Shown here in pieces: positions 3,963 to 64,000 of a stretch of 64,000 nt of DNA. The number at the start of each line of letters is the position of its first letter. Position 1 is the stretch's first letter. The stretch is from Bacteroidales bacterium (GTDB lineage Bacteria > Bacteroidota > Bacteroidia > Bacteroidales > M50B96). Both the position numbers and the translations under genes were made by a program. A model generated the notes under the pieces. It saw nothing but the letters and a program-made list of their open reading frames with translations, was not told where the DNA came from and searched no databases. The DNA lies in the NCBI GenBank assembly GCA_021740905.1, contig JAIOYV010000017.1:1-64000 (forward strand), read 5' to 3'.

Positions 3963-3965
3963 TAT

Positions 3966-5609: not shown

Positions 5610-5646
5610 TACTGCTACCAATTGCAAACATCCATCTGCCAACTGC

Positions 5647-7052: not shown

Positions 7053-7149
7053 ACAGTGCTCCGTTGCAACCTATCAGAAAAATGACATCCGATTTTTTCT
7101 TCTAACATTATAATATAGATATACTTATTCAATACCTAATTCTATAAAT

Positions 7150-43138: not shown

Positions 43139-43150
43139 AAAGAGAAATCT

Positions 43151-45871: not shown

Positions 45872-46072
45872 TCAAATAGTTCTATTTTAATATTCAGAAT
45901 AACGACAAATTAATCAATTTGTTATGTGCTTTCCAGGCATCAAAAATACAAAGAATCGGGCAAATAATTGCAGGGAAGGTGAATAATCATCGTAATTGGT
46001 AGATGGATTCTTTGGTTGATGGATTGGTAATACCGGCGGGGCTTTCCTTATAGTAAGGTCGTGTATTGGGAA

Positions 46073-46090
46073 GACGCGATAAATCGCGTC
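46073..46090. repeat. Dispersed palindrome, copy 3 (GACGCGATAAATCGCGTC)
   Basis: The 18-bp palindrome is identical to the core of the copy at 5588-5609 and is again followed by TCTAC, so conservation extends one-sidedly beyond the palindrome. It lies in a gap between two T9SS cargo genes. Confidence 0.8.
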
Positions 46091-46279
46091 TCTACATGAA
46101 GGTGGTCGGTTGCCCGGATATTCAGTGGTTAGGGCGTGGACACACTTTAAAAGTTAATATTACAATACAATGATTCTCTATTAAAATTCTGGAATATTTT
46201 ACCCTGCTGCCATTTCTATTAACGAGGATAAACTTTTGAAGTGGTGCATTGGTACCGTGGTACGGTGGTATGGTTTTGC

Positions 46280-46314
46280 AAAAAAAAAGCCCCGACATGG
46301 CCGGGGCTTTTTTT
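46280..46314. terminator. Strong bidirectional terminator (GCCCCG...CGGGGC)
   Basis: GCCCCG at 46289-46294 pairs with CGGGGC at 46302-46307 across a 7-nt loop, flanked by nine A residues to the left and seven T residues to the right. It ends the leftward T9SS gene starting at 48544, 26 bp after its stop. Confidence 0.88.
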
Positions 46315-46333
46315 ATTTATTGTTAAAACCAGA

Positions 46334-48544
46334 TTACTTGATCAGGTTTATTTTCTTTGAAACTACATTGTTATTTGTAATTACTTTCACAATGTATGTG
46401 CCCTCGGCAAATTCGTTGAGGTCGATACGGGCTTGATTATTTGCCTGCTCGATAGAAGCCACTTGTTCGCCAACTATATTGTAAACAATGATGGTTGAAT
46501 TGGCAACATTCTCCACATTTAAAATACCTGTTGTTGGATTGGGATATATATTTACCGGGTTCTCAACAAGCTCTTCGGTACCGTCAGGATATACAACATC
46601 TACCCAATAATATTGCTCGTTTGTCTCTGTGCCATTGTCGGCAAAAACAGTAATCCTAAACGAAGTATTCCCAAGTACTACAGGGTTTGCTGTACTAGGA
46701 GCTATTGTACTTATACTAATCGTACCGTCGCCATTATCGATATATGTCAACTGGAGATCGGGGTTATTTATAGTTGCAGTTAAAGTAAGCGGCAAATTCT
46801 GTGGATCGACAGCTGTGATAGTATCCTCATAAGGCGTGCTAAAATAGCACAAAGTATCAGGTACAGAAGTGAATTGCGGAGGCAAAATTGCCCCATCCAT
46901 GTTTAACCTTACCAAAGGAAGCCCATTGCTAATCCAGAACCAATCGGTAGTAAGCCTTACTACTGATTCATACCAAAGCATGTGAGGGTAGCCAGCATCT
47001 TCATCTCCAATGTAAACACGCTCACCTGCATTATAATAACACTCAACACCAACAATATAGTGGGATCCACCGGGAATAACCTCCGATCCTGGATTAATAA
47101 TGTAAATGGGTATAGTGACCCATGTGCCAAGATGCCAGGGCATAATAGTAAATTCATCTGTACCGATCCATTCCGTTTGTGTTGTACTAACTGTACCCTG
47201 ATATATTTGTCCCTTGATGGTAGTATAGGGGGTAGTCCGGTAGTCGACATAAACTGAAATAGAATTCACAGTTTCAGTGTTCGGCACATAATGATCTACA
47301 CCAACGAAATCGCCAGTCAATCCGCCACCAAACAATGAAGGTGATGTAGCTCCATGCGTAAAGCGCTCAGGCCTATCTCGGGCGAAAATCTTATTATTGG
47401 TAATTTCGTATGAAATAGTATCCATCACATTGTCTATAGGAATTTGTTCTGTCTCAAATTGATAGCATTGGTATGCAACTGTGTATTTATCAGCAGTGGT
47501 TGGAACAAAAGTGTTTGGGGTATACAACGTAACTGTATCGTTATAGGCAAGTTGCGTGGTGTCCTCAGTTTCATTATAAACAATTGAATTGGCCGAATTC
47601 CATATTGTGGCTTCAAATGTTACATCTGTTTGGGTTATAAATCCATTATTGTAGATAGAACCTCCACAAACGTTGTCCATTACCTGGCTTAGGGGAAGTC
47701 TTGCATAGGGACCGGCAATTATTCCTGCTGATGAATCCCAGAAGTAATTGAGTCCTTCAACTAATCGAATATCGTTGTCAGGTGCTTCAACCAGGCTAAA
47801 ATCATCGATATGCCACCAATAATCCCATAAGCCCTGCATACGGAAATATATTTTCACTGAGGCCTGGCTACCAGCAATGTTCGAGATATTGAGTAAATAA
47901 TAGGCTGGATTATTGGTCACATCGCCAGTCTCAAAATCGACATGGATTTCAATTTCTGTGTAGGTAATTCCACCATCGACAGAAACACCAACAAAAGTAT
48001 AGTTTTCGCCATACGGATTTAGGATTGGAGGATTCGCGGTATTGACTCCTAACCCCCAACGCCTGTAAAATTCTTCCCAAGCAATGGCAACCGACGAATA
48101 AGCTGAACAGTTGTAAGTTGGCGAATAAAGGAAAGCATCGTAGCTACCTTGTCCATTACCATCCGAGTCATACATCATCCACCCATTGGCCTCTGTTGTC
48201 GATTCGAAAGGATCGCTTCCATACGAACCGGTTGTCCCAGTAGTTGTATATAGCCATGTGTAATTATTGTTTTGCCCATCAATATCTTCTGTAGTCCATC
48301 CAGTGGGCAAATCGTCAACGGTAGGACCACCGGTGCTAAAGTCGTCATAAGCAATCGTGTCGCCAAATGATTTGGTTGCCCTTTGAAAATCAGCGTGATT
48401 GTTGTATTTCTTCAATTTAATGCTCATCTCAGGAGAGGCTCCCTTAACAACATTTTTCTTTACACTAGGCCAGTCAGCATTCGTTTGAGCAAACATACTG
48501 AAAGAAAACGCCAAGATTAAACTTAGTAGAGTAAATTTCTTCAT
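46334..48544 (-). CDS. T9SS type A cargo with jelly-roll and Ig-like domains
   Basis: A 736-residue secreted protein. Start set at MKKFTLLSL (signal peptide about 1-21, ending MFAQ); an upstream in-frame ATG adds 13 residues without purpose. Residues about 55-260 resemble the adhesin/choice-of-anchor J jelly-roll (DDFSTGGPTVDDLPTGW, WHIDDFSLVEAP). A second half contains a cadherin-like Ig domain (about 560-650; PPQFTSVPDTLCYFSTPYEDTITAVD). The C-terminal 75 residues (NIYPNPTTGILNVENVANS through YIVKVITNNNVVSKKINL) are a T9SS type A sorting domain. No enzyme motif is apparent. A TATATTTG promoter box is upstream and a strong terminator downstream, so it is a single-gene unit. Confidence 0.88.
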   Translation of the reverse strand: MKKFTLLSLILAFSFSMFAQTNADWPSVKKNVVKGASPEMSIKLKKYNNHADFQRATKSFGDTIAYDDFSTGGPTVDDLPTGWTTEDIDGQNNNYTWLYTTTGTTGSYGSDPFESTTEANGWMMYDSDGNGQGSYDAFLYSPTYNCSAYSSVAIAWEEFYRRWGLGVNTANPPILNPYGENYTFVGVSVDGGITYTEIEIHVDFETGDVTNNPAYYLLNISNIAGSQASVKIYFRMQGLWDYWWHIDDFSLVEAPDNDIRLVEGLNYFWDSSAGIIAGPYARLPLSQVMDNVCGGSIYNNGFITQTDVTFEATIWNSANSIVYNETEDTTQLAYNDTVTLYTPNTFVPTTADKYTVAYQCYQFETEQIPIDNVMDTISYEITNNKIFARDRPERFTHGATSPSLFGGGLTGDFVGVDHYVPNTETVNSISVYVDYRTTPYTTIKGQIYQGTVSTTQTEWIGTDEFTIMPWHLGTWVTIPIYIINPGSEVIPGGSHYIVGVECYYNAGERVYIGDEDAGYPHMLWYESVVRLTTDWFWISNGLPLVRLNMDGAILPPQFTSVPDTLCYFSTPYEDTITAVDPQNLPLTLTATINNPDLQLTYIDNGDGTISISTIAPSTANPVVLGNTSFRITVFADNGTETNEQYYWVDVVYPDGTEELVENPVNIYPNPTTGILNVENVANSTIIVYNIVGEQVASIEQANNQARIDLNEFAEGTYIVKVITNNNVVSKKINLIK

Positions 48545-48580
48545 TTTATTAATTTTTGTTAAACAATTTATTTCGCTGCA

Positions 48581-48588
48581 CAAATATA
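48581..48588 (-). promoter_or_regulatory. Bacteroidota -7 box (TATATTTG)
   Basis: The minus strand has TATATTTG, a perfect TAnnTTTG match, 36 bp before the start of the 736-residue T9SS gene. A TTG further upstream is at 23 bp, longer than the usual 17-20. Confidence 0.55.
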
Positions 48589-48883
48589 ATTAAAATCCAG
48601 TTGGTCTTTATCAAATTTCTTTTTTTATAAGCTTATTAACTGCTCCTAAAAACGATGCAAAAATAATTGACAATCAATAAGTTTAAAGAAATAATTTGGA
48701 TTGAGCTACTTGTGTAGTACAACATTAGCTTTGTACAGACACCCAAAGTTGGTAAGCGAATATCATTCAATCCTCTATAATAAACCAGTTAATTTATTGT
48801 GAATTGAATAATACCAAAGTGTAAACTACTTTGTGGTACTTATGAAAGAGACTAAAAATCTATACAAACCTTTGCCATCCGTA

Positions 48884-48899
48884 CGTCGAATATTCGACG
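48884..48899. promoter_or_regulatory. Perfect 16-bp palindrome CGTCGAATATTCGACG
   Basis: A perfect dyad about 60 bp past the stop of the 496-residue T9SS gene and 340 bp upstream of the next gene. It has no T-run, so it is not a classic terminator; it could be a regulator-binding dyad or a transcript-end hairpin. A second inverted repeat lies about 50 bp away. Confidence 0.35.
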
Positions 48900-48959
48900 G
48901 TGGTCACGCTCGTTCAAATCTATAATTTGCAGCTTGGAGTTCCTCAGGAAATAATCAGG

Positions 48960-50450
48960 TTAATGAAGAATCATCACTGGAAACGATTCGACTTTTTCGT
49001 TTTTGATAATCCTGATCCTATAAATACCCTGTGAATATTCGGAAACATTGAGTTTCCAAAACTCTGGTATGTTTTCTTCTTTCCTAATAAGGCGACCTTC
49101 CGAATTATACATTTCGACAGATGAAGCCCTGGCATTTTCAATAATAAGGGTTTCTGACACTGGGTTCGGGAAAAGGTTGATTTCACTCTTTGCAGTCTCG
49201 TCAATGCCTATCTGGCCTATGGTATCGATCTCAATATCATCAATTAAAAATATAAAAGAATTGTTAGACACACATTGGATAGCCACATGCACCTCAACAT
49301 TCGACCAAGCTGATAAATCGTATTCAAAATAAGTCCAAGCGGTATCGACTTGTTGAACCTGCAATGTGGAAAATGGGATTGAAGGTGTAAGCACATTGGA
49401 AAATTCCGATGGAACAGGATTTCCTGTAGAAACCAATACCCTGAACGTTTCTAGCGCGTATTGCATGGAATAGGAACGTGCATAAAAACGGACACTGCCA
49501 CTTTCTGAAATAATCACTTTGGGCGAAATCAGCCAATCGTCGTTGGGGCCAAAAACGGCAGCAAAACAAGCCCCGTACTTACTGCCACCACCGGAATGTG
49601 GATCTGCCGAAGTCAATGGTGGGCTGACTAAGTCGGGATTGAAGGCTATGAACGACATTGCCTCTGCGCTGTGCGGAAATGTATGATTTGATATACCATA
49701 AGTTTGAGAACTATCCATGTCGATAGTTATCCAGGGCGTAAGGTCGAGCGAAAAATCATCGGCTTCCTCAAAAGTCCCAGTCACCGTGCCTTGCGGTACT
49801 GGTGGTATCCCAACCTTAACATCATCAATTCCAAGTATCTCCTGGTTCGTTGAAGTATGCCTGAAGGCAATGGAAACCGTATCGTTGATCCATGAAGCGA
49901 GATCTATTTCGTGGCTTGCCCAGACAGTTTCTTCGGCGGCCACCGATTCGAGCAGTGTCGAGAAATCGGTATGTGTTGTAGCTGTGCCGGACGTGATGTA
50001 AACTTCGTAACTTTCGTGTGTGTTATTGTTGCCAGTAACAGAAACAGAGCGTCCTTTCCAGAGTAATTTGGCATTATTGGTAACGGGAATGTTGGGGATT
50101 ATCATCCAACGGTCGGCTTGGCCTGCAGGACTGAAATACGAGTTACTTCCCATCCAGTTGTTCGATTCGCCGCTAAATTCGAGCAAGAGCCAAACATCGT
50201 CGTAAAAATTAAGATTGGTTATAACCGACACATCGGGATGATCCTGAAGGCTGTCGAGGTTTTCGAATATTAAGTCGCCCAGCACAGTGTTATCTTCAAA
50301 GTCAAGATTAAAATCCCAGGTGGATGCCGATCGGGTTGTTTGTACAAAATCGTGTGCCTTTTGGATTTTGGTTGAAGGCAATGATCGGGTTTGTGAAAAC
50401 CCCACAAGTGTAATGCAGAAGAATATGAAGCTCAACAGGATACTTTTCAT
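48960..50450 (-). CDS. T9SS type A cargo with two adhesin-like jelly-roll domains
   Basis: A 496-residue secreted protein. Signal peptide about 1-19 (CITLVGFSQ). Two choice-of-anchor J/cleaved-adhesin-like domains follow: the first about 45-210 (SPAGQADRWMIIPNI, EILGIDDVKVG) and the second about 225-410 (GPNDDWLISPKVIISESG, FIFLIDDIEID). The shared motif, a D(R/D)W(M/L)I(I/S)P strand and a closing IDD strand, shows an internal duplication. The C-terminal 75 residues (NLFPNPVSETLIIENARAS through YRIRIIKNEKVESFPVM) are a T9SS type A sorting domain. No protease or glycosidase catalytic motif is seen, so a surface-binding function is the most likely. Confidence 0.88.
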   Translation of the reverse strand: MKSILLSFIFFCITLVGFSQTRSLPSTKIQKAHDFVQTTRSASTWDFNLDFEDNTVLGDLIFENLDSLQDHPDVSVITNLNFYDDVWLLLEFSGESNNWMGSNSYFSPAGQADRWMIIPNIPVTNNAKLLWKGRSVSVTGNNNTHESYEVYITSGTATTHTDFSTLLESVAAEETVWASHEIDLASWINDTVSIAFRHTSTNQEILGIDDVKVGIPPVPQGTVTGTFEEADDFSLDLTPWITIDMDSSQTYGISNHTFPHSAEAMSFIAFNPDLVSPPLTSADPHSGGGSKYGACFAAVFGPNDDWLISPKVIISESGSVRFYARSYSMQYALETFRVLVSTGNPVPSEFSNVLTPSIPFSTLQVQQVDTAWTYFEYDLSAWSNVEVHVAIQCVSNNSFIFLIDDIEIDTIGQIGIDETAKSEINLFPNPVSETLIIENARASSVEMYNSEGRLIRKEENIPEFWKLNVSEYSQGIYRIRIIKNEKVESFPVMILH

Positions 50451-50662: not shown

Positions 50663-51850
50663 TTATCCCCTAATAGCCTTTATGCCAGGCAATTCTTTTC
50701 CTTCGATATATTCCAACAAAGCCCCGCCCCCTGTGGATACGTAACTTACTTTGTCAGCCATGTCGTATTTGTTGATGGCCGCCACCGAGTCGCCGCCACC
50801 AATAAGGGTAAACGCCCCTTTTTTAGTGGCTTCGACCAAAGCATTGGCAACGGCTTTCGTGCCAGCCTCGAAATTCGACATTTCGAAAACACCCATTGGT
50901 CCGTTCCATAAAATGGTGTTCGATTGTTTGATGATCTGTGCAAATGCTTCAGCTGATTTTTCTCCAATATCAAGACCCATCCATCCTTCTTCGATGTTGT
51001 GTACATCTGACATTTTAAAGTTGGCATCGTTGTCGAACTTATCGGCCACAATAGTATCCACTGGCAAATGAATCTGGACCTTGTTCTTTTTGGCTGCGTC
51101 GAGGATGTTTAAGGCCATCTCAAGCTTGTCTTCTTCAACCATCGACGAACCCACATTGCCGCCCAATGCTTTGGCAAAGGTGAACATCATGCCACCGCCC
51201 ACAATCAGGTGGTCAACCTTATCCAACAGGGTTTCGATAATCGTAATTTTGGTCGAAACTTTGGCTCCACCCAAAATAGCTGTAAACGGCCCTTTGGCAT
51301 CGTGCAACACTTTGTCAATGCTATCCAGTTCGCCTTCAATCACATAACCAAACATTTTATTCTCGGGGAAAAAGTTGGCAATTATTGTGGTAGAAGCATG
51401 GGCACGATGAGCGGTCCCGAAGGCATCGTTTACGTACACATCGGCCAGATTTGCCAGTTGCTTGGCAAAACCCTCGTCGCCCTTGGTTTCTTGCGCATGG
51501 AAGCGAAGGTTTTCCAACAACAATACCTCGCCAGGTTTTAGGTTGGCAGCCATTGACGAAGTTTCCTCACCAATGCTATCTTTCGCAAAGATTACCGGAG
51601 TGCCAATCGATTTCGAAAGATGATCGACAATGTGTCGAAGGCTGAATTTATCTTCAGGTCCCGACTTTGGCCTTCCGAGATGCGACATAAGGATAACGGA
51701 GCCTCCATCGTTCAATACCTTTTTAATGGTAGGAATGGCAGCCCTGATGCGGGTATCGTCGGTAATTTCAAAATTACTGTTCAGGGGTACGTTAAAATCG
51801 ACCCGTATAATGGCTTTCAAGCCCTTAAAGTTGAATTCGTCAAATTTCAT
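50663..51850 (-). CDS. pgk: Phosphoglycerate kinase
   Basis: A 395-residue glycolytic enzyme forming ATP and 3-phosphoglycerate from 1,3-bisphosphoglycerate. Standard motifs are present: RVDFNVPLN (residues 16-24), [46 protein letters not shown], the P-loop-like [11 protein letters not shown], and GGGDSVAA near the C-terminus. Length is typical. It is a housekeeping gene embedded among T9SS cargo genes, with its own promoter box 28 bp upstream and repeats on both sides. Confidence 0.97.
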
Positions 51851-52165: not shown

Positions 52166-54238
52166 CTACTTCTGTATTACAATCTTTTGTTGATGTACTT
52201 CTTCTGATGTTTCGATTTTCAATATGTAAATGCCGGAACTAATGCCGGAACAATCAATGAAGATTTGATTTTCATTCGAATTGATCAACAATATACTTTT
52301 TCCAGTAATATCGAAAATTTCTATGGTACATTCAGGTTTTCCAGGCACTAATATGCTTATCCCATTGTAGGCTGGGTTGGGGTAAACCAATATTTCATTA
52401 TGTGGCGAATAGGAAACAAACTTCAACACATGTACATCGAGTGGCCCAAACGACAAGGACAAACCCTTGTCGGCAGTAAGCAATTTGTAATAATAGTGAA
52501 GCAATTTGCCGGTATTGTCGACTGTTTCGCGGTAGTTTACCAGTGAGTCAACTATTTTATAATCCTGCCCAGTGACATCCTGGTTGGTTTCAAACAAAAC
52601 TTCAACCCCGATTGCATTTTGAATTTGAGGATCGCCTATTTGGCTAAAATCCAGATCAACATCCAAAATCGGGACCGGGAGCATATTGGCAATTATCAGT
52701 ATAGTTTCATCGCCATTTGTGCGGATTGTATATCGCAAACCATAATTTTCGCTAAAATGATCATTGAAAGTGTGCATCAATGGATGATTTAGTTGAGCAT
52801 AAAAAGGGGCTGGAATTTTAGAATCGTTGATGTAGTCCGGATATTCAGGCACTATCCCATTGACATCAGCATGATCAGTTTTTGTATGAATAACAGAAGT
52901 GTTTTTATCGAGAAAGCCCTTTTGTGAGAGGTAGTTTAATTCCCGGGCCAGATTCGAAAGGTAATATCGATATCTCCGAGGGAAATATTTCCGGTCGAAC
53001 CTATCTTCAATTGTATTGGGGTTGGCCCAAACAGAGGGGTCTTCAGCGTTGGAAATATTCTGGATCTCATTGGTTTCAGTTTCCCATAATCCGGGTAACC
53101 ACCAAAACCATATTCCGTCAACGCCATGTATAATGGAAGCATAAGCCTGAAGCCAAAGGTAATTTGCATTCGGTATGTAAACATCTGTATGTAATGGACT
53201 TTCTAGAGAACCATTGTCATAGTAGGCCATTAAAATATTATGGACTGAATTGGCATGTTCCTTTGCAAAATCAATACTTCCTAAAAACCCCAAATAATGT
53301 TTGCCTCCTTCTGCTATTTGCGAATAGCTTTCGATAGCCCAGGCAATTGGCTCCCAGGTAAAATAAGATCCTTCGAAAAACACATCCCTAGTATCGCTCT
53401 TATCTAAAAGTTCAATATATTCAAAGGGATCGTAGTCGATGGGTTGATTCTGTCCCCAGGAGTTTGTGCTTGTCTGCCATTCTTGGTCATTATAATTATA
53501 ATTGATAGTCGCTCTATGATTTGCCTCCATTATCACCATTTTTTGATGGGTAATTCCGGCATTGCTCAAAATGCTTTTGTACAAGTCCATACCCTCTTTT
53601 ATATTTGAAGGGGGGATTTCGGTTCCTCTAAAATCAATATCTGCTTTTGCCTGGCAATTTTCGTTGACGAGTTTGGGGTGCAAGTACGATGCTTCCTCTC
53701 CAAGATGATGACCCCAAATAATATCCTTGTATTCGTCCTGGATACAAATATTTGTGAAAATGTCGAAAATATTGTGGAGGTAATAATCATAATAGTAGGG
53801 TGGGTTGGGATTATTGTATTCGTAAGGGGTTAAGCAAATTGGATAACTCGTATTACAGTTGTCGTAATCATTGTACCCGGTTCCTGTATAATTTCCTTCT
53901 TCATCCAAAATTGGCCTATAGTTTATCCCCGGCGAAAGCTCGATTTGCATACCATTGTTGCCTGTTAGCTTAATTAAACTTTGAACAACAGCGATCGAAG
54001 TCCAAACGTTTGGGACATACTTATTTATAATATTAAACCCATCTTCTTTGAATACATTTAATGTACTTGTTTTGAATCCGCTATCTAAGGGAGCTTCATA
54101 AACTACCTGACATCCGTTCACCTCATGTACTTTAAATTCAACGCCGAACATGCCAATCTTAAAATCGTTGGTTTGGGCACTTGCAATAAATATGTTCGAT
54201 ACAATCAGAATGAATACTATTGACAGTTTTGGTTTCAT
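52166..54238 (-). CDS. T9SS type A secreted protein, possible TIM-barrel fold, unknown activity
   Basis: A 690-residue secreted protein. Signal peptide about 1-21 (SNIFIASA). The body (about 25-610) is rich in Trp/Tyr/His and has alternating hydrophobic strands and acidic loops typical of (beta/alpha)8 glycosidases. Candidate active-site segments are WGHHLGEEASYL, MVIMEANHRAT and WFWWLPGLWE, but I recognise no glycoside-hydrolase family. The C-terminal 75 residues (LVYPNPAYNGISILVPG through YILKIETSEEVHQQKIVI) are a T9SS type A sorting domain. It is divergent from the tandem DUF5060 genes across 159 bp, so shared regulation is possible. A polysaccharide-acting role is inference from neighbours and composition. 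Confidence 0.78.
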   Translation of the reverse strand: MKPKLSIVFILIVSNIFIASAQTNDFKIGMFGVEFKVHEVNGCQVVYEAPLDSGFKTSTLNVFKEDGFNIINKYVPNVWTSIAVVQSLIKLTGNNGMQIELSPGINYRPILDEEGNYTGTGYNDYDNCNTSYPICLTPYEYNNPNPPYYYDYYLHNIFDIFTNICIQDEYKDIIWGHHLGEEASYLHPKLVNENCQAKADIDFRGTEIPPSNIKEGMDLYKSILSNAGITHQKMVIMEANHRATINYNYNDQEWQTSTNSWGQNQPIDYDPFEYIELLDKSDTRDVFFEGSYFTWEPIAWAIESYSQIAEGGKHYLGFLGSIDFAKEHANSVHNILMAYYDNGSLESPLHTDVYIPNANYLWLQAYASIIHGVDGIWFWWLPGLWETETNEIQNISNAEDPSVWANPNTIEDRFDRKYFPRRYRYYLSNLARELNYLSQKGFLDKNTSVIHTKTDHADVNGIVPEYPDYINDSKIPAPFYAQLNHPLMHTFNDHFSENYGLRYTIRTNGDETILIIANMLPVPILDVDLDFSQIGDPQIQNAIGVEVLFETNQDVTGQDYKIVDSLVNYRETVDNTGKLLHYYYKLLTADKGLSLSFGPLDVHVLKFVSYSPHNEILVYPNPAYNGISILVPGKPECTIEIFDITGKSILLINSNENQIFIDCSGISSGIYILKIETSEEVHQQKIVIQK

Positions 54239-54397
54239 AATTTCAGGGGCTTTGATTATTTCTACCTTTATGTTGAAAAAATATTGTCTAAAGGTAATTA
54301 AAATACTTCATCCGTGGAGGGTCTTTGAAGTCACTTCTATAAATCTTTTTCTTACTTTTACAGCAAATCATCTAAAAATTTCACCTTGGAAAACTGC

Positions 54398-57300
54398 ATG
54401 TTGATAGGTCGGGGCACATTCAGACAGGTTTTGTCGTTCTTCATTCTTCTTATGGCATTGAGTCTATTGCAGGGGAATGCCATCGCACAAGATTGGAACC
54501 AATATCCAAATTCACCCATTATCAAGAAATATGAAAAGTTTGAACTGATCATTCGGGCCGATTATCAAAGCATCAGGCAGCACATCATCCAACCGTGGGA
54601 TAACCCAAACGATGCGGGAAAATTGAACCCATTCAACCCCGATTATCAAAATGAAAATGGGATAAGCCTGGAGGCTGTATTTACTTCCCCTACCGGGATT
54701 CAGCATAAAGTGTATGGTTTCTACATGGAGGACTGGGCATACAACGGCAATCTGAATAACTATTATTATGATGCCCTTACCGATTCGAATCAATACAAAT
54801 GGCGTATCCGTTTTTCGCCTAATGAAGTGGGCAACTGGTCATATAGTTACACCTTCTATTTCTCGGTTCAACCAAGCTTTAAAAGCTATACCAGCGATGG
54901 TAACTTTACATGTGAAGAATCCGGTCACCATGGTTTTCTGAAAGTAGGGCCAAACAATGCCTATTTGCAATTCGACGATGGCACAAGCTTTTTTGGGATT
55001 GGCGAAAATATGGGCTTTGCCAGCCAATTCGATTTTTTAGGCGACAACGTTTCGAATAGTACAAAGATCGCCAAATATAAGGCACACCGAAAACTTCTTC
55101 CTGAATTGTCACAAAATGGTGGGAATTATGTCCGATCCTTTCAACTTATCATGGATTATGCCTTCGACTTTGCCAGTGCAGAACAATATTTCGAAGGCCA
55201 AAAACGATGTTTTGAAACTGAAAATTTTATTGAAGAAGCTGAAAGAGCGGGGATCTACCTACAGTTTAACATACAAGATGATACAGGTTTTAGTAAAGAA
55301 TGGCCTTTTAAGTGGCACGACAATCCCTATTATTCCATTGTCGACAATCCTCAAGACACAACCTATTCCTTCTTTCATACCGAAAGAGTGAAAACTTTGT
55401 GGGAAAGGAAATTTAGGTATATCATAGCTCGCTGGGGCTATTCAAAAAATATTGCCTGTTGGGAATTGTGGAACGAACCCCGAAATTGCAAATACTGGCA
55501 AACCCAGAGCCCGGGAGCAGTACTAACTGATTCGGTAATTGCCACATGGCTAATTGGCAGGGCAAATTATGCCGTAGATCTTTTTAAGCTCGACACAATA
55601 AATTATGGACAACATGCCAACTTTCACCCCATTATGGGTTCAAACAACGGTGACCCATTTGCTGAATTCATGTCGGTCGACTCGAAGAGTGCAATTCATC
55701 TGTTGTCCATGCACACCTATACCTCCGATCGCTTGGGCAATTTTTATTATTGGGTTAAACTTCAACAATATGAAGATCCCGGCACAATTAGCCCGGGCCG
55801 GATAAAAAAGCCGACCAACTGGGGAGAAATAAATTCTGGCAATGCCGATATGAACCGGTGCACCGATATTGAATTTCATAAAAAAATATGGAGTACTTCA
55901 ATGGTGGGGGGATTTTCTACAGGAATGTCGTGGTTTTACCATCATGATCATGCGTATAATAGGATTGCCGGTTATGCCGATATAGCCAGCTTTTTTAAAA
56001 ATGAGGATATGCAGGAATATGGTGCCTTTTTCCCGGGAAGGTATCCCTACAAAAACCTGAATGCCCCGGAGGACAGGGAATGGGAGAAAATGGAAAAGGA
56101 GGGCTATGATTATCCCTATATGAATAGTGTATATATGGTAAACAATTTCAAAAACCGGGGAATGGGTTGGACATCGAACCCAACCCACTATTGGTATAAT
56201 TTCCAGGATTCACCAAATATAGTCTACTGCGTTGATTCCATTGCTACATTACATGGAGATAGATTTGTATTGCCTACTGATGATGATGCCACAAATGTCG
56301 CAATTTACAATGGGTTTAGCAGTACAATTGAAATTAATGGATTGAACCCGGACAATTGGTACAAAGTGGAATGGTACCGGACCCTCAAATTAAAATACAT
56401 TGCAAGCTCGGCATACAAAGCCAATAATGAGGGTCAATTATTTGTTGAAACACCCCAAACAGGTGCTGGCGATATTGACCCAAACGATCCTTATTATCCC
56501 GATTATGCATTTAAATTTTTTGAAGACTTGTGCGGGAATGATTTCCCCTTGTTGCATAATGGTTGGGAAAGGGTATGTGGAAGTGTGAACTACCCCATTT
56601 CTAAATACGACAAGCTGGTTGTGGGCGATTTTGATGGAAATGGAGTGGATGATATTTTAGGATTCAATTTAGAAAATAGGGCAACTTTTTTCAAATATGA
56701 AAATGAGACTTTCAATAATTCATATTGCTGCAACAATGGAAGTTTAATTGTTTGGGACAGCCTTACCAGTTATAGAGACAATATGTGGGTTGGCGATTTC
56801 GATGGTGATGGATTGGATGAAATTTTATGCGCAAAACCATCAGGTCATTTTCTTGCTGTTTTTGAATTCGATCCTTTACAAAAGAATTTTTATAAATTCT
56901 GTGAAACAAACCCGAACCTTTCATGGGAAGGAATGACTGGCTTCAATAATTTCCTGATTGGCGATTTCGATGGAGATGGGAAAGACGAGGTGCTTTCTGC
57001 AAATTATGCAAAACAATGTGTGGCATTGTTTAAGTTCGATGCGACAGGCAAAAAGTTTAAGAAAGAAAGTGACAACTCATGCAACCCGGACAGTTGGGAT
57101 TCGATTTCATCCTTCACCGATTATTGGTGGGTGGGAAATTTTGATGCAAGCAACGATCCTCCCAAAGGTAAAAAGGATGAAATAATCGCCTTTTCGTTTG
57201 ATCCTGAAGTGGAACGATTATTTGAGTTCAACAATCAGCCGGAAGTGAACGCCTTTAAAGAACTTGCTTCACAGGATTTTAAATACAAGGACGACCATCA

Positions 57301-57913
57301 GCTTTGGAATTTTGTAAACAGTCATCCGTGGAGCAGCTATTACGATGGCAACATCACAGTATTGGATTTCGATTCCGATGGAGTGGACGAAATCATGGCA
57401 GGCAATAAGTCTATTTCTGGCTTTACCGAGTTTTCATTGCAAATCGATTCTGCCGGTTTTACAAACATAGCGGGCAACTTTAAAGATGAACCCCAAATTG
57501 CAGATATGCCGGCCCTAAAGATTGAGAATGGCCTTATTCAAAAATTCAGCGATGGAACAAACGATAAACTAATGATACAGATGCCATGCAGGAATGAATA
57601 TTATGTGGGTCTCTATCAAAAAAACGACACCTCCGGTTTAATCAACTTCCCCTCTCCTACCGCAAGCAAACTAATTGACCCCGTTCAAATTTATCCAAAT
57701 CCCACATCAAGCCTGGTTGAAGTAGAGTCGATATTGCCAATCATTCATTATGAGCTTTATGATTTCAGTGGCCGGAAAATGAAATCGGATGAGACGAACG
57801 GATTGTATTATCTAAAATTGAATCTTAACGAAATGCCACAAGGCTTGTATATCCTTAAACTTTGGTTCGATGAAAAAAGCAGCGCACATAAAATTATGCT
57901 GATAGGACAATAA
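54398..57913 (+). CDS. T9SS-secreted DUF5060/GH-A-like protein with FG-GAP repeats, copy 1
   Basis: A 1171-residue secreted protein. Signal peptide about 1-29 (start set at the ATG of MLIGRGTF; an in-frame TTG lies 12 bp upstream). The DUF5060 beta-sandwich covers about 35-165 (YEKFELIIRADY, GIQHKVYGFYMEDW). The clan GH-A-like catalytic barrel (about 180-640) has WELWNEPRN with Glu360 as likely acid/base and NWGEINSG with Glu477 as likely nucleophile. Five FG-GAP/VCBS-like repeats follow (about 735-1000), each with a DFDGDGxDE-type calcium-binding motif, one degraded. The C-terminal 80 residues are a T9SS type A sorting domain. It is probably a surface glycosidase; substrate unknown. Its paralogue lies 89 bp downstream. 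Confidence 0.85.
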   Translation: MLIGRGTFRQVLSFFILLMALSLLQGNAIAQDWNQYPNSPIIKKYEKFELIIRADYQSIRQHIIQPWDNPNDAGKLNPFNPDYQNENGISLEAVFTSPTGIQHKVYGFYMEDWAYNGNLNNYYYDALTDSNQYKWRIRFSPNEVGNWSYSYTFYFSVQPSFKSYTSDGNFTCEESGHHGFLKVGPNNAYLQFDDGTSFFGIGENMGFASQFDFLGDNVSNSTKIAKYKAHRKLLPELSQNGGNYVRSFQLIMDYAFDFASAEQYFEGQKRCFETENFIEEAERAGIYLQFNIQDDTGFSKEWPFKWHDNPYYSIVDNPQDTTYSFFHTERVKTLWERKFRYIIARWGYSKNIACWELWNEPRNCKYWQTQSPGAVLTDSVIATWLIGRANYAVDLFKLDTINYGQHANFHPIMGSNNGDPFAEFMSVDSKSAIHLLSMHTYTSDRLGNFYYWVKLQQYEDPGTISPGRIKKPTNWGEINSGNADMNRCTDIEFHKKIWSTSMVGGFSTGMSWFYHHDHAYNRIAGYADIASFFKNEDMQEYGAFFPGRYPYKNLNAPEDREWEKMEKEGYDYPYMNSVYMVNNFKNRGMGWTSNPTHYWYNFQDSPNIVYCVDSIATLHGDRFVLPTDDDATNVAIYNGFSSTIEINGLNPDNWYKVEWYRTLKLKYIASSAYKANNEGQLFVETPQTGAGDIDPNDPYYPDYAFKFFEDLCGNDFPLLHNGWERVCGSVNYPISKYDKLVVGDFDGNGVDDILGFNLENRATFFKYENETFNNSYCCNNGSLIVWDSLTSYRDNMWVGDFDGDGLDEILCAKPSGHFLAVFEFDPLQKNFYKFCETNPNLSWEGMTGFNNFLIGDFDGDGKDEVLSANYAKQCVALFKFDATGKKFKKESDNSCNPDSWDSISSFTDYWWVGNFDASNDPPKGKKDEIIAFSFDPEVERLFEFNNQPEVNAFKELASQDFKYKDDHQLWNFVNSHPWSSYYDGNITVLDFDSDGVDEIMAGNKSISGFTEFSLQIDSAGFTNIAGNFKDEPQIADMPALKIENGLIQKFSDGTNDKLMIQMPCRNEYYVGLYQKNDTSGLINFPSPTASKLIDPVQIYPNPTSSLVEVESILPIIHYELYDFSGRKMKSDETNGLYYLKLNLNEMPQGLYILKLWFDEKSSAHKIMLIGQ
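54678..55008 (+). repeat. Near-identical block shared with 58262-58592
   Basis: Bases 54678-54798 (121 bp) are identical to 58262-58382 at every position, synonymous sites included. The block then stays above about 90 percent identical to roughly 55008. Flanking coding sequence of the two paralogues is much more diverged. It encodes the end of DUF5060 and the start of the barrel. Confidence 0.9.
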
Positions 57914-57918
57914 CAGTT

Positions 57919-57946
57919 TTGCCTACCGACAAATCCTTTATCTTTA
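57919..57946 (+). promoter_or_regulatory. Promoter of DUF5060 copy 2 (TTG-N17-TATCTTTA)
   Basis: TTG at 57919-57921 and TATCTTTA at 57939-57946 are 17 bp apart, with one mismatch to TAnnTTTG. It starts 6 bp after the copy 1 stop and lies 57 bp before the ATG at 58003, implying separate transcription of the two genes. Confidence 0.5.
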
Positions 57947-58002
57947 CAAAAATTCATCAATTGGATCTTACATTGAGACTAAATATTGTAATCGGACCGA
58001 AA

Positions 58003-61000
58003 ATGACGAGACCATTCCTTGCCAATTTGTTGCTTATCGCATTGTTTCTGCCGATGAGCAATTTGTTTGCTCAGGATTGGGCCCATTATCCAAATTCATC
58101 CACAGTAAAGAAATATGAAAAATTTGAATTGATCCTCCGGGCCGATTATCAAAAAATTAGACAGCGTACCATTGACTTGACGGATGATCCAAACGATCCT
58201 GAAAAATTGAATCCATTCAACCCAGATTATAAAAAAGAAAATGGGATTAGCCTCGAAGCTTTATTTACTTCCCCTACCGGGATTCAGCATAAAGTGTATG
58301 GTTTCTACATGGAGGACTGGGCATACAACGGCAATCTGAATAACTATTATTATGATGCCCTTACCGATTCGAATCAATACAAGTGGCGTATCCGTTTTTC
58401 GCCTAATGAGGTGGGCAACTGGTCATTTAGTTACACCTTCTATTACTCGGTTCAACCAGGCATTGAAAGCTATACCGACAGTGGCAGTTTTATGTGTAAA
58501 GAATCCGGTCACCACGGTTTTCTGAAAGTGGGGGCAAACAATGCCTATTTGCAATTCGACGATGGTACAAGTTTTTTTGGGATCGGGGAGAATTTATACT
58601 CGGCCAGTTTTTGGTCCCAAATGGAATCCATAGTAAATGTACAGGCAAGGATTGCCAGGTATCAAATACATCGCGACCGGCTTGTTGAATTAGCTGCGAA
58701 CCATGGTAACTATGGCAGGTTTTGGACTTCGAGCATTGATTATGCTTTTGATTTCAGAAGCCCTGAACAATACCTTGAAGGCCAGATACGATGTTTCGAG
58801 ATTGAGAACTTTGTGGAAATGGCCGAGCAAAATGGGATTTATTTGCAGTTTGTAGTTCAAAATTCATGGGGCTTTGGGGAGGGAAACCAGGTCCTGGAGG
58901 CCAATTGGGAGATGAACCCCTATAATAATCCGGCCATTCTGGATTCTCAACCCGACGGGGTCTACTCTTTTTTCAAAACCGAAAGAGTAAAGACTTTGTG
59001 GGAAAGGAAGCTGAGGTATTTTGTGGCACGATGGGGCTACTCGAAAAACATTGCCTGTTGGGAATTGTGGAACGAACCCAGGAATATGTTGGCCTTTGCC
59101 CAAAATGCTGCAAACAACGATTCCATTTCGGAGGATCAACTTGCCGATTGGCTTGTGGAGCGGGCTAAAAAAATGGTTGAACTTTTTCCCCTTGAAAATC
59201 AATCGACCTCTGATGATTATAACCAACACGCCAACTTTCACCCCATAATGGGCGCGACCAACAACGACCCCTTTGTTCTGTTCAGACAAGAAGCCACACG
59301 CGGTGTTATCCATTTGTTGTCGATGCATGCTTATGGATCGGATAGAACAGGCAATCATTATTACTGGAATAAATTCAATCAGTTTGAGAACCCATTGACG
59401 ATAGCTGCCGACTGTATGAAAAAGCCTATGAATTGGGGCGAAATCTACGCCGGAAACAGCGAAATGGATATGTGTACCCATCTCGAATTTCATCGAAAGC
59501 TTTGGGCCACGGCAATGGCAGGAGGGTTTTCTACAGGCTTGTCGTGGTTTTTTGGCACCGATCATGGATATGGGCGAATTGTTGAATATGCCGACATTGC
59601 CAGCTTCTTCAAAAATGAAAATTTGCAGGAATACGGTATCACCATCCCGGGTCGGTATCCCGATGATCATTGGTATGATTATTTTCAGGAAAATAAAGAC
59701 AATTATCCATACATGCAAAGCATTTATATGGTGAACAACGATAAAAGCCAGGGAATGGGTTGGACCGAAAACCCTTCGCACTACTGGTACAATTTCCCGG
59801 AAATTGTTGTTTGTGCCGATAGTGCAACCGCCGCCAATGGCGATGCCTTGCGCTTACCAAGCGACGATGATGAGAACATTTATCCTATATATAATGGATT
59901 TGACAGACACATCACAATAAAAGGATTAAACCCCGGCAAGTGGTACAAAGTAGAATGGTACCGTACCCAAAACCTGAAATATTTTGCTAGTACAGCTTAC
60001 CAGGCCAATGACAATGGTGAGATGATCATGGAAACGCCCATGTCGGGTGGCGGGGATATTGATCCAAACGATCCGTTTTATCCCGACTATGCTTTTAAAT
60101 TTTATGAAGATTTATGTGGAAACAATTATCCATTACTGCACAATGGCTGGGAAAGGGTTTGTGGGAGTGTCAATCATCCCATTTCAAAATGCGATAAGTT
60201 GGTTGTTGGCGATTTCGATGGTGATAGTGTGGATGATATACTGGGATTTGATTCGGAAAATAGATCGACATTTTTCAAGTATGAAAATGAAACTTTTAAT
60301 AATACCTATTGCAGCAACGATGGGGATGCAAGTAGTTGGGACTGCATTTCAGCCAATAAAGAAAAAATGTGGATTGGCGACTTTGATGGCGATAGTATGG
60401 ATGAGATTTTAGGTTATGATTCAACAGGTAATCTTGTTGTTTATAAGTTTGATAAATCGTTGAAAAGATTTTACAGAATGAGCCCAATAAATCATGATAA
60501 TTCCTTGAAGGACATGGCATTATATTTCAATTTTCTGATTGGCGATTTCGATGGTAATGGAAAGGATGAATTAATTGCTTCAAGCACCATAAATAACTGG
60601 GTGATTTTGTACCGATTTAATACCCTAAACCATAGCTTTGAGGTTGACCATCATAATTCCTGCCTTATGGCTAACTGGGATTCGATTTCATATTTTACAA
60701 ATTATTTGTGGTCTGGAAATTTTGATAAGAGCAATGATTTGACCTGGACAGCAAAAGATGAAATATTTGCTATTTCGTTTGAACTGGGCATGGCCCGGAT
60801 ATTTGAGTTTTCCAGTTCAGCTTTTCATGAGAAATCCTCAATGCCAATTTTAGACCAACAGGGCTATCAATTGTGGGAATATGTGAACTGCCAGCCCTGG
60901 AATAATTCCTACGAAGGCAACATCATTGTATTGGATTTCGATTCGGATGGAATAGATGAGATCATGGCGGGCAACAAATCAATCAATGCCTTTACCGAAT

Positions 61001-61479
61001 TTTCGCTGCAAATTGTTGCCCCCTATTTAACGACTCTTGCAGGCAGCTTTAAAGATGAAATCCAAATTGCCGATATGCCTGCCATTAAAATTGAAAAAGG
61101 AGAAATACAGAAATTCAACGATGGAATAAATGACATGCTCCTTATCCAAATGCAATGCGGCACCGAATTTTATGTGGGCTTATATCAAAAAACGGACTCC
61201 TCAGGTTTTACCGACTTCCCCTCTCCCACCTCAGATAATATAGTTGATCCAGCACTTATATATCCAAATCCTTCAACCGGTATGATTGAAGTTGAGTCGA
61301 TTTTACCCCTTTTCAATTATGAAGTATTTGATTACAGTGGACGAAAGTTGAAGTCGGAAGAAGTGAATGGCTTGTATTATCTGAAATTGAATTTCAACGA
61401 AATGCCACAAGGATTGTACATCCTGAAACTTTGCAGCAAAGAGAATTGTAACACGTATAAAATCATGATAATAAGATAA
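58003..61479 (+). CDS. T9SS-secreted DUF5060/GH-A-like protein with FG-GAP repeats, copy 2
   Basis: A 1158-residue paralogue of the preceding protein with the same domain order. Signal peptide about 1-22 (LFAQDW), DUF5060 about 28-160, GH-A-like barrel with Glu358 in WELWNEPRN and Glu480 in NWGEIYAG, five FG-GAP-like repeats about 730-995, and a T9SS type A sorting domain at the C-terminus. The start is the ATG of MTRPFLANLL; an in-frame TTG 84 bp upstream is part of the probable promoter. A strong terminator follows, then a tRNA on the other strand. Compared with copy 1, the region after the NEPRN motif (residues about 362-400) has the largest insertions and substitutions, which may change specificity. 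Confidence 0.87.
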   Translation: MTRPFLANLLLIALFLPMSNLFAQDWAHYPNSSTVKKYEKFELILRADYQKIRQRTIDLTDDPNDPEKLNPFNPDYKKENGISLEALFTSPTGIQHKVYGFYMEDWAYNGNLNNYYYDALTDSNQYKWRIRFSPNEVGNWSFSYTFYYSVQPGIESYTDSGSFMCKESGHHGFLKVGANNAYLQFDDGTSFFGIGENLYSASFWSQMESIVNVQARIARYQIHRDRLVELAANHGNYGRFWTSSIDYAFDFRSPEQYLEGQIRCFEIENFVEMAEQNGIYLQFVVQNSWGFGEGNQVLEANWEMNPYNNPAILDSQPDGVYSFFKTERVKTLWERKLRYFVARWGYSKNIACWELWNEPRNMLAFAQNAANNDSISEDQLADWLVERAKKMVELFPLENQSTSDDYNQHANFHPIMGATNNDPFVLFRQEATRGVIHLLSMHAYGSDRTGNHYYWNKFNQFENPLTIAADCMKKPMNWGEIYAGNSEMDMCTHLEFHRKLWATAMAGGFSTGLSWFFGTDHGYGRIVEYADIASFFKNENLQEYGITIPGRYPDDHWYDYFQENKDNYPYMQSIYMVNNDKSQGMGWTENPSHYWYNFPEIVVCADSATAANGDALRLPSDDDENIYPIYNGFDRHITIKGLNPGKWYKVEWYRTQNLKYFASTAYQANDNGEMIMETPMSGGGDIDPNDPFYPDYAFKFYEDLCGNNYPLLHNGWERVCGSVNHPISKCDKLVVGDFDGDSVDDILGFDSENRSTFFKYENETFNNTYCSNDGDASSWDCISANKEKMWIGDFDGDSMDEILGYDSTGNLVVYKFDKSLKRFYRMSPINHDNSLKDMALYFNFLIGDFDGNGKDELIASSTINNWVILYRFNTLNHSFEVDHHNSCLMANWDSISYFTNYLWSGNFDKSNDLTWTAKDEIFAISFELGMARIFEFSSSAFHEKSSMPILDQQGYQLWEYVNCQPWNNSYEGNIIVLDFDSDGIDEIMAGNKSINAFTEFSLQIVAPYLTTLAGSFKDEIQIADMPAIKIEKGEIQKFNDGINDMLLIQMQCGTEFYVGLYQKTDSSGFTDFPSPTSDNIVDPALIYPNPSTGMIEVESILPLFNYEVFDYSGRKLKSEEVNGLYYLKLNFNEMPQGLYILKLCSKENCNTYKIMIIR
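58262..58592 (+). repeat. Near-identical block shared with 54678-55008
   Basis: Partner of the block in copy 1. The first 121 bp (58262-58382) are identical and the remainder highly similar, ending near the GIGEN codons. Outside it the two genes differ at many positions. Confidence 0.9.
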
Positions 61480-61770: not shown

Positions 61771-64000
61771 TTATTCCTTGATGAATCTCTTCGTAGAAGA
61801 GCGTCCATCTTCGTTCTTGATATTTACAAAGTAAACACCAGGGACAAGGGTTTGAACATCAATTTGAGTTGTATTCCCAGTAGGTATAACTTGGCTTAAT
61901 TCTTCACCCAGGATGTTGTAAATACCAATACGGTCAATGTTTTGAGTGCCTTTAACAGTTAACATACTATTAACCGGATTTGGGTAGAGCGCAAAACCTG
62001 TGTGGCCCACTTCTTCAATATCAACATAAATAGTAACATCATCGGCCATGCGCAATTCAATTTTCCATTCCTCAAAAGTATAATTCACAACCCCTTGAAC
62101 ATTATAATGCTCACCTAAAACAGGGGTGTAAGTATAAGCGGAATTATTATGTACAAGAGTGGTATCACTTCCATCAAATAATTTCCACATGCCATATCCT
62201 GCATCTTCATCCGTGCATTCGGCGTTCTCAACCCGGACAAAAACACCCTCGTAGGCTTCATCGTTTACAGCTCCGGTAGTAAGGACTTCGGGGTTTGGTA
62301 GTGCATTCCCACTTGAATTTATGATAAGCGAAGTCACATTTTTCAATTCTGTTAATTCATAATACTCATCAATTTCTCCTGAAACAGTAATTTCATCTCC
62401 TAATGATACAACTTGGGTATTGTACACATAAAGCCCGTTCCATGCTCCATCTCCATCTTGAATAAAAAAGCCGGCGGCTGAAGGGATGGCGGTTACAATA
62501 CCTGTAGTTGTCACAGTTTGTCCATCAAAAGGAGAAACAGAAGTTTGCCCTTGTATGTCGTAAATTGAAGTATTTGTTGGCGCGTTTGAGACAGAGTATG
62601 ATTGAATCAAAATGGTAGTATCGTTGTCATCATCAATGGCCATGAACTTATAAAACACCTCGGTTCCGAGAGCCTGAGCAGGGATGCTGTTTGGGAAGCA
62701 GCTGTAAATACTAAATACGTTGGTCAAAGCCAGGTTGTTTGGGAAATTTATTCCGTCAAGGCCCCAGGTAAGTGTTACCAGGGTTACTGTTCCATCTACA
62801 TCAGTAACTGAAGCGGAAATCACTACGGTATCGCTTGGTGTAACAACTGTAGGGGACACAGTTATATTTGATATGCTTGGGGGTACGTTTCCTCCTGCCA
62901 TGAAATATCCAAGATCGGTGAAATCGTTTTGTGGCATCACTACCCATTCCGAATTTGTGGCATCTGTACCGAAAGAAGCCAACCAGTTGGTGTTCCCCGA
63001 AGTTGTGGTAAGTTTTCTGCGTAGGGTGTATTCATGTGTAGCATCAGGAACGCCTGCAACTGGCCATGCAGCTCCGGGATCGTTGTCTGGATCGCCAAAC
63101 TGGTCAATAATAATAGTATCAGGACCCACAATATGACACAAGGCCCGAGCATCGTCCCCATTAAAATGAACTACGCTTTGGAAAGAACCTGGATAGGTAA
63201 GCACTTCATCGGCATTCGCAGCTGGGAATAGTAAAGGATCTACCTGATTGGTGATAATAACCCAAACATCGTGAGAGTTTAATACAGCCCCGGCAGGAAA
63301 AATATGATAGACTTCCCAACCGCCACCACCAGAAGACAACGCAACTACATAATCATCAAGATCAACAGGAGTCGACTTAGGATTGTATATCTCCAAGGCT
63401 TTGTTGTTGCTTGTTCCTTCAATATATTCCGAAATAAACAAATCAGGTTCGGCAGCTACGTTTACGGTAACAACCCATGTTTGTGCCACTGCCGTGGATG
63501 ATGTAACTGTATACGTAACAGGTAATGTAAAATCCTGTAAGACTCCCGATGCAGGTGATATTGTAGCACCAGTAGATACGGTAATGGTTGGCGTAAGGCT
63601 GGCTATATTTGTTCCTGCTGCTACAGTAATATCAACAGTAAAGTTTGTACCATCGATAGTTGCAGGGCCAGTTTGTTGAGGAAGCTCAAAACTTAAAATA
63701 TCGTTTGCAGAAGTAGTAGCAGTATAAAAAGAAAGCTCATCGACATACAATTCGCTTCCTACCTGAATATTATTAGGGTCGGAGCTAAGTATGTTGATGT
63801 TCATATAATTTGGCATCGAAGTCGAGAAATATGTAATCTGGGCCTCGAAAGGCTGCCAACCATTTGTGGCTGAAGTGCCTACAAAATATCCTGCTCCGAT
63901 AGTATCAATAATAGTATTTGTGCTTGTATTGTAATTCAAAAGAACCACTTCAAACATACATTGATCGGTATTTTCGGGGTCGTAATTATAGTAGCCCATA
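61771..64000 (-). CDS. T9SS type A cargo with lamin-tail domain (5' end outside window)
   Basis: A partial protein of at least 743 residues; the frame runs off the right edge, with no signal peptide, so the true start is beyond it. The visible part begins with a jelly-roll-like segment (about 1-92), then an Ig-like domain (about 97-182; SFELPQQTGPATIDGTNFTV). A lamin-tail (LTD) domain follows at about 185-370 (FISEYIEGTSNNKALEIYNP), another Ig-like unit, then a DUF5689-like OB-fold (about 485-600; GIVTAIPSAAGFFIQDGDG). The last 75 residues (FALYPNPVNSMLTVKG through VYFVNIKNEDGRSSTKRF) are a T9SS type A sorting domain. LTD/OB pairs occur in secreted nucleases, but no nuclease domain is in the visible portion. 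Confidence 0.88.
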   Translation of the reverse strand, partial: MGYYNYDPENTDQCMFEVVLLNYNTSTNTIIDTIGAGYFVGTSATNGWQPFEAQITYFSTSMPNYMNINILSSDPNNIQVGSELYVDELSFYTATTSANDILSFELPQQTGPATIDGTNFTVDITVAAGTNIASLTPTITVSTGATISPASGVLQDFTLPVTYTVTSSTAVAQTWVVTVNVAAEPDLFISEYIEGTSNNKALEIYNPKSTPVDLDDYVVALSSGGGGWEVYHIFPAGAVLNSHDVWVIITNQVDPLLFPAANADEVLTYPGSFQSVVHFNGDDARALCHIVGPDTIIIDQFGDPDNDPGAAWPVAGVPDATHEYTLRRKLTTTSGNTNWLASFGTDATNSEWVVMPQNDFTDLGYFMAGGNVPPSISNITVSPTVVTPSDTVVISASVTDVDGTVTLVTLTWGLDGINFPNNLALTNVFSIYSCFPNSIPAQALGTEVFYKFMAIDDDNDTTILIQSYSVSNAPTNTSIYDIQGQTSVSPFDGQTVTTTGIVTAIPSAAGFFIQDGDGAWNGLYVYNTQVVSLGDEITVSGEIDEYYELTELKNVTSLIINSSGNALPNPEVLTTGAVNDEAYEGVFVRVENAECTDEDAGYGMWKLFDGSDTTLVHNNSAYTYTPVLGEHYNVQGVVNYTFEEWKIELRMADDVTIYVDIEEVGHTGFALYPNPVNSMLTVKGTQNIDRIGIYNILGEELSQVIPTGNTTQIDVQTLVPGVYFVNIKNEDGRSSTKRFIKE

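Follow-up and report, generated by a model that had tools for sequence, protein, structure and literature searches.

The window analysed here is a 64,000-nucleotide stretch of a Bacteroidales bacterium genome (assembly GCA_021740905.1, contig JAIOYV010000017.1, positions 1–64,000 of the forward strand), and the locus described lies at 52166–61479. Three open reading frames (ORFs) were found, at 52166–54238 on the minus strand and at 54386–57913 and 57919–61479 on the plus strand, in the positions listed by a first-pass annotation of this DNA. The first encodes a 690-amino-acid (aa) protein, P0001, and is divergent from the plus-strand pair P0002 and P0003, whose ATGs are at 54398 (the first in that frame) and 58003 (before the signal peptide). 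All three proteins have, by eye, a signal-peptide-like start, and all pass the TIGR04183 cut-off of 23 bits (55.4, 31.1 and 26.0 bits) as type A cargo of the type IX secretion system (T9SS).

Both members of the pair have the domain order DUF5060, (beta/alpha)8 barrel, beta-sandwich, FG-GAP/VCBS propeller and T9SS tail, with a central region that matches no Pfam family. The DUF5060 (PF16586) scores of 32.8 and 27.9 bits exceed the cut-off of 27.2, as does the FG-GAP_3 score of P0002 (41.4 bits against 26.9). P0003 is slightly under the latter cut-off at 26.4 bits, yet it is 60% identical to P0002 end to end, and its propeller region, 58% identical to that of P0002, has the repeated DxDGDG blades of PF13517/PF01839. 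The first-pass assignments of T9SS sorting domains to all three proteins and of DUF5060 to both large ones therefore stand, and its assignment of FG-GAP/VCBS repeats to both stands by profile score for P0002 and by this resemblance for P0003. The NE and GE acidic pair that it placed at Glu360/477 and Glu358/480 was found there when residues were counted from the ATGs (364/481 in P0002 and 386/508 in P0003 from TTG starts). The other eight matches of P0002 within its own genome were confined to its T9SS tail.

Table. Features of the locus, in window coordinates
Feature	Position	Strand	Basis
P0001, secreted protein of an unnamed family: signal peptide, core of ~590 residues (52409–54172), T9SS tail	52166..54238	-	ORF; only the tail passes a Pfam/NCBIfam cut-off
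Glu182 codon, the sole Glu invariant in 5/5 members; proposed acid/base	53693..53695	-	alignment A3; putative role
Glu289 codon in FFEGSY, 4/5 members (L094 has Asn); candidate for the second catalytic acid	53372..53374	-	alignment; putative role
P0001 T9SS type A sorting domain	52175..52387	-	profile match
Intergenic spacer of 159 bases from which P0001 and the pair diverge	54239..54397	.	scanned for the Bacteroidetes-type promoter consensus
P0002, first enzyme of the pair, from the first ATG	54398..57913	+	ORF, profiles, phmmer, model
P0002 DUF5060	54659..54856	+	profile match
P0002 WNE Glu codon (Glu360 from ATG); putative acid/base	55475..55477	+	aligned with the ManDH5 E303Q residue
P0002 WGE Glu codon (Glu477 from ATG); putative nucleophile	55826..55828	+	alignments
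P0002 FG-GAP/VCBS-type propeller	56522..57655	+	profile matches
P0002 T9SS sorting domain	57689..57898	+	profile match
P0003, second enzyme of the pair, from the ATG preceding the signal peptide	58003..61479	+	ORF, profiles, phmmer
P0003 DUF5060	58210..58440	+	profile match
P0003 WNE Glu codon (Glu358 from ATG)	59074..59076	+	residue numbering
P0003 WGE Glu codon (Glu480 from ATG)	59440..59442	+	residue numbering
P0003 FG-GAP/VCBS-type propeller	60106..61224	+	profile matches
P0003 T9SS sorting domain	61258..61470	+	profile match

To place the pair, sequences and a predicted structure were compared with the Protein Data Bank (PDB). A phmmer search of PDB sequences matched residues 79–542 of P0002 (E 4e-21) and residues 97–387 of P0003 (E 3e-18) to the DUF5060 protein ManDH5, which was the sole match of P0002 outside its tail and likewise of P0003. 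Both copies carry the Arg of GNYxR, the NE motif, the His-Tyr of MHxY, the GE motif and the Trp of SWF, which we take to be the active-site set of glycoside hydrolase family 5 (GH5), with Glu after strands 4 and 7. These positions in P0002 align with ManDH5, and the Glu of its WNE motif is aligned with the Q of the ManDH5 E303Q sequence. Both catalytic Glu residues and the MHxY His were invariant in all 16 aligned sequences (14 relatives plus the pair itself). Residues 36–1100 of P0002 were modelled with AlphaFold on the same 16 sequences, and the top fold matches of the model were five ManDH5 entries (best Z 34.1, root-mean-square deviation 3.7 over 522 residues). Next came a putative Bacteroides glycoside hydrolase at Z 24.9 and, further down, mainly GH5 mannanases, mannosidases and glucanases, many of the GH5 entries at Z 18.5–22.6; this search hardly tested the model beyond about residue 680. 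Foldseek also ranked ManDH5 first. The barrel fold was modelled for P0002 and assigned to P0003 through their identity. The comparison placed a mannanase on top and no non-catalytic fold, which supports the earlier view of the pair as barrels of glycosidase type in which both catalytic acids are retained. The pair are likely retaining beta-glycosidases of the DUF5060/GH5-like (ManDH5) type; that they are mannanases, acting on mannan, is possible only. Three matches of the pair below threshold (Beta-prop_CGLA, Itfg2 and Bile_Hydr_Trans) were set aside.

On sequence grounds, the pair is an old tandem duplication. Non-synonymous divergence (dN) between the copies was 0.28 and synonymous divergence (dS) 1.79 overall, and the duplicates look both old and constrained. 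Divergence was uneven along their length. The tract 54629–54988 against 58213–58572 (P0002 residues 82–201, DUF5060 and just after) showed 85–97% DNA identity, including an exact 121-base identical stretch at 54678 and 58262. Outside this front tract the copies differed by 19–54% per 40-codon window, and barrel windows of about 40 residues were 46–66% identical in DNA, except for the window ending at the NE motif (79%). This pattern probably reflects gene conversion limited to the DUF5060 region, with divergence of the barrel and middle blades. Divergence was greatest within the barrel and the middle propeller blades, and the copies may differ in fine specificity.

The core of P0001 (residues 23–610) gave nothing above cut-off in Pfam or NCBIfam and no PDB match. 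In the class sample, clear relatives were present in 4 of 394 other genomes (E 6e-89 to 9e-37; loci L091, L092, L093 and L094), and two weaker matches (E 0.004 and 0.007) were discounted as chance hits. The core was missing from the 246 other genomes searched in its own order and from 295 of the phylum sample. A profile of the five members, searched in the orders of three of the four relatives (12, 108 and 12 genomes; the order of G738 was excluded), found the centre genome only. The core was likewise absent from phages and, by pattern scan, from viral contigs, and the DUF5060 core had no match in plasmids; a mobile origin is not supported. Pairwise identity among the five members was 27–41%, and none had a core match in Pfam. 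Their alignment (A3) has a single invariant Glu (Glu182, within W-G-x(5)-E), as well as invariant His187 and His241 and a conserved N-x-N-x-L-W-x(3)-Y-x-S-I block. The five-member profile had no credible PDB match (best E 1.5), and a match of P0001 to a peptide-arginase model was set aside (16 bits against 350). By these searches, P0001 belongs to a rare, unnamed secreted family, which is a candidate glycosidase family.

The propeller was found beyond the pair. In two of the four relatives of P0001 (L093 and L094), a P0001-like core leads into FG-GAP repeats and then a T9SS tail, with every match over its cut-off. A profile (A4) of the propellers of L093, L094 and the window pair matched 6 of 395 class genomes at E 1e-20, three of them its own sources, the independent matches being in G832 (L107), G641 (L108) and G807 (L109). 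L107 combines a DUF5060-barrel ORF, matched to ManDH5 by phmmer at E 4e-25, with a propeller and tail that follow in another frame; the frame break, near 7663, is either a sequencing error or a true break. L109 has barrel, propeller and tail in one ORF; a plant mannanase matches its barrel briefly and weakly around the NE motif (E 1e-5), and Pfam GH5 does not match it at 0.001. L108 has propeller and tail with no recognised catalytic part. A hidden Markov model (HMM) from the five non-window propellers recovered P0002 and P0003 at E ~1e-22 (75–76 bits) from 505 ORFs that included the pair. The first-pass annotation had called FG-GAP repeats on a glycosidase-like barrel unusual; such an arrangement is rare, but not unique, as it recurs in L109, in L107 with its frame break and in L084 in an adjoining ORF. 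In L084 itself (2955–8408), two adjacent ORFs on one strand between them encode FG-GAP repeats, what by eye is the beginning of an esterase-like domain (GQSNAV), and a DUF5060 barrel, an arrangement suggestive of a single long protein that has been split.

Since these propellers stand behind 690-family cores, a GH5-like barrel and a DUF5060 barrel, the propeller looks like an exchangeable module that is probably glycan-binding. The findings suggest, without proving it, that the 690-aa proteins form a new enzyme family with targeting parts in common with known ones. What is new here is a rare unnamed family together with a module that it probably shares. In a PDB search, A4 matched 9oee, listed as a secreted esterase (E 4e-11), as well as lyases of polysaccharide lyase family 11 (PL11; E 1e-4). 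VCBS-like propellers are described as typically tied to carbohydrate recognition, those of PL11 being catalytic (PMC9218822), PVL lectin, integrins and PL11 are grouped in one propeller supercluster (PMC8023676), and a propeller lectin is reported bound to a bacterial glycopolymer (PMC13274773). Judging by domain order, 9oee may be an umbrella lectin; that it is the propeller lectin just mentioned could not be confirmed. Excerpts of PMC3192720 and PMC3123361 contained nothing on such enzyme fusions beyond PL11, and no title among the matches listed from the open-licence literature concerned a barrel–propeller fusion; one paper in that literature names DUF5060.

Taken together, these results lead us to favour, with somewhat better than even confidence, a small surface glycan-cutting locus composed of a ManDH5-type glycosidase pair and a 690-aa likely hydrolase. 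The pair would cross the inner membrane via Sec and the outer membrane via the T9SS, and would then be held at the surface or released. In a double displacement, the WNE Glu would serve as the acid/base and the nucleophile would be the WGE Glu; the VCBS propeller would grip the glycan and keep the barrel on its substrate, which may be a beta-linked, perhaps mannan-like, chain. The 690-aa protein would most likely be a further hydrolase that targets the same glycan or one connected to it.

Several observations weigh against this interpretation. For the pair, the P0002 model had a mean predicted local distance difference test score (pLDDT) of 55, uneven across the barrel (blocks of ~34–88) and below 50 from model residue 863 onward at the propeller end. 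Identity between P0002 and ManDH5 is only about 21%, and the substrate of ManDH5 is therefore not transferable to the pair. The GNYxR Arg is mostly not kept in the 14 relatives, in which the SWF Trp is only nearly invariant, and neither member of the pair matches the Pfam GH5 model PF00150 at E 0.1. For the barrel and sandwich parts dS was saturated and the method gave no value, which makes the overall dN/dS approximate. For the propeller, the HMM from the five non-window members also scored the L084 FG-GAP protein (45 bits), directly beside a DUF5060 gene, and an HMM from the window pair alone found four of the five non-window propellers and missed L093, which pairwise BLAST matched weakly (E 2e-7). 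Membership of one subtype thus rests on moderate scores; the kinship of the pair's propellers with the non-window ones is real at superfamily level, and a common subtype is probable, not proven. Glycan holding by the propeller is a best guess that follows from the link of the VCBS superfamily with carbohydrate recognition. For the 690-aa family, Glu289 is present in four of five members and is Asn in L094, and only L093 and L094 pass the T9SS cut-off among the relatives, L091 being just under (26.6 against 27) and L092 having none. The 690-aa and DUF5060 barrel profiles did not align significantly (hhalign, 48 columns, P 0.16). The TIM barrel that the first-pass annotation had seen in P0001 was not confirmed, as there was no Pfam or PDB match and a single-sequence AlphaFold model reached a pLDDT of 35. 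Finally, no SusC/SusD pair, sugar transporter or polysaccharide-utilisation gene was present among the ORFs scanned around the locus.

The best-surviving alternative, which we regard as possible though unlikely, is that these are ordinary neighbours: a duplicated DUF5060 glycosidase beside an unrelated T9SS protein by chance, with the propeller as a calcium-stabilised generic spacer. A pattern scan of an 84,980-species collection gave 14 DUF5060 loci (23–30% identity), and DUF5060 matches were present in 25 of 246 other genomes of the window's order, 20 of which were combined with the 14 to give 34 loci (G010, G015, G041, G194 and G218 were left out). The 690-aa core was absent from all 34 (best phmmer E 0.27, tblastn 2.2) and, at E 0.1, from the whole genomes of the 14 named loci, a search run without an internal positive control whose query recovers its own genome in other searches. 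Reciprocally, no DUF5060 gene was present in the stretches fetched around the four 690-aa relatives, the L093 contig being only 7.9 kb. The conserved three-gene unit that had been envisaged is thus rejected, the 690-aa gene being absent from every DUF5060 locus examined, an outcome that the first-pass annotation had itself named as refuting. Also consistent with chance proximity are the T9SS cargo on either side (43151–50450 and 61771–63999), the PKD domains added in six longer DUF5060 relatives among those scanned with Pfam (10 of the 34 loci), and the score of L084 with the five-member propeller HMM; phmmer with the P0002 propeller had found nothing in the 34 loci, L084 emerging only with that HMM. 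Against it, 690-aa relatives in two other genomes bear a propeller of the same general kind, likewise placed before the T9SS tail, and the pair has stayed intact despite an old divergence, its dS being partly saturated.

It is rather unlikely that the 690-aa protein is instead a non-catalytic surface protein for glycan binding or adhesion. The lack of a fold match, the single invariant Glu and the Asn at the second candidate position in L094 would fit such a role, but W-G-x(5)-E, the N-x-N-x-L-W-x(3)-Y-x-S-I block and the invariant His look pocket-like in our reading, and the propeller-bearing members would then have two binding parts and no catalyst.

The gene neighbourhood was also surveyed; the first-pass annotation had proposed a host, algal or self glycan, and any of the three may apply. 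No SusD, sulfatase or other polysaccharide-utilisation family was found among 24 of the 48 window ORFs (≥150 aa) and three downstream ORFs, and the sole TonB-type receptor seen was at 35175–37625; the earlier remark that no SusC/SusD pair, sulfatase or polysaccharide-utilisation gene lies nearby holds for these ORFs. Elsewhere, a METHYLTRANSFERASE neighbour recurs: a Methyltransf_24 gene adjoins the 690-family gene of L091 (6608–7510) and the propeller genes of L108 (5488–6345) and L109 (9379–10239), that is, in three of the seven non-window loci carrying either part. The proteins of L091 and L108 are 54 and 65% identical, respectively, to that of L109. The gene links the two families in other genomes and could be a hitch-hiking cluster. 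The neighbours of DUF5060 relatives are a mixture. Catabolic-type ones include genes resembling SusC/D at L027 and L079, where SusD was recognised by eye, MFS/sugar transporters, an SASA esterase and, among the matches listed for 52 neighbours (best 25 of 105 families), 3-keto-disaccharide hydrolases (2 of 52). It is improbable that the cell's own exopolysaccharide, and not food, is what the proteins trim or bind: the lack of a SusC/SusD pair or sugar transporter among the window ORFs scanned, a YjbH-type exopolysaccharide gene ~6.4 kb downstream of the pair (L110:4875–6200, contig ~67874–69199, beyond the window), the Methyltransf_24 neighbours, the presence near the Saprospiraceae relative L026 of one glycosyltransferase gene, one sulfotransferase gene and a methyltransferase gene with a weak match, and single DUF5060 neighbours that fit UDP-GlcNAc 2-epimerase and GDP-mannose dehydratase models among the matches listed all speak for it, but the catabolic-type neighbours of other DUF5060 relatives and the absence of a Methyltransf_24 relative from the window and L110 speak against it.

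Other features of the surroundings were noted. A phosphoglycerate kinase gene lies at 50663–51850 (by eye only), and the regions 42161–50450 and 61771–63999 contain a PorP/SprF gene as well as several genes for T9SS cargo with tails of the CHU_C and type A kinds. A Bacteroidetes-type promoter consensus was not found in the divergent stretch 54239–54397. In the gap between the pair (57914–58002), TTTG and TATCTTTA are spaced 17 bases apart by eye, which is near that consensus, so that P0003 may have its own promoter.

A broader extension of the favoured glycan-cutting interpretation is offered tentatively and, taken whole, is unlikely: the 690-aa family would be a new glycoside hydrolase family and, in addition, the propeller an unrecognised carbohydrate-binding module exchanged among at least three T9SS catalytic families (the DUF5060/GH5-like, another GH5-like barrel and the 690-aa family), aiming at one glycan class and accompanied in some genomes by a sugar-modifying methyltransferase. 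If true, this would provide a handle on a family that is not recognised by Pfam (five members), the PDB (profile) or NCBIfam (the window protein), would name candidate catalytic residues for it, and would make the propeller a directly testable, portable glycan-binding module of T9SS enzymes.

Among known systems, the closest is ManDH5 (PDB 9gmj, 9gpa, 9gpc, 9gpe and 9gpg), a Dictyoglomus thermophilum DUF5060 protein described in the PDB titles as a beta-D-mannanase of family GH5; no publication on these entries or naming ManDH5 was among the matches listed. Through this 2025 structure series, the Bacteroidota DUF5060 proteins are placed beside a GH5-type mannanase. ManDH5 and the pair share DUF5060 followed by a (beta/alpha)8 barrel, the NE/GE pair and the Arg, His-Tyr and Trp positions, whereas the 568-aa ManDH5 chain matches the model only as far as residue 679, leaving the propeller and T9SS tail without a counterpart. 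The other Bacteroidota DUF5060 proteins (L026–L039 and L065–L084) share the DUF5060–barrel–sandwich core, with both Glu invariant in the 14 aligned. They differ from the pair in their additional domains, with PKD in six of the 10 scanned, no FG-GAP in L027, L032 and L034, and in L026 a repeat of another type that matches DUF346 below threshold. The known VCBS/FG-GAP propellers, namely those of PVL lectin, integrin-like proteins, PL11 lyase and the umbrella toxin particle lectins, have DxDGDGxDE-type blades like those of the pair, whereas the propeller of the pair sits after a GH5-like barrel and before a T9SS tail.

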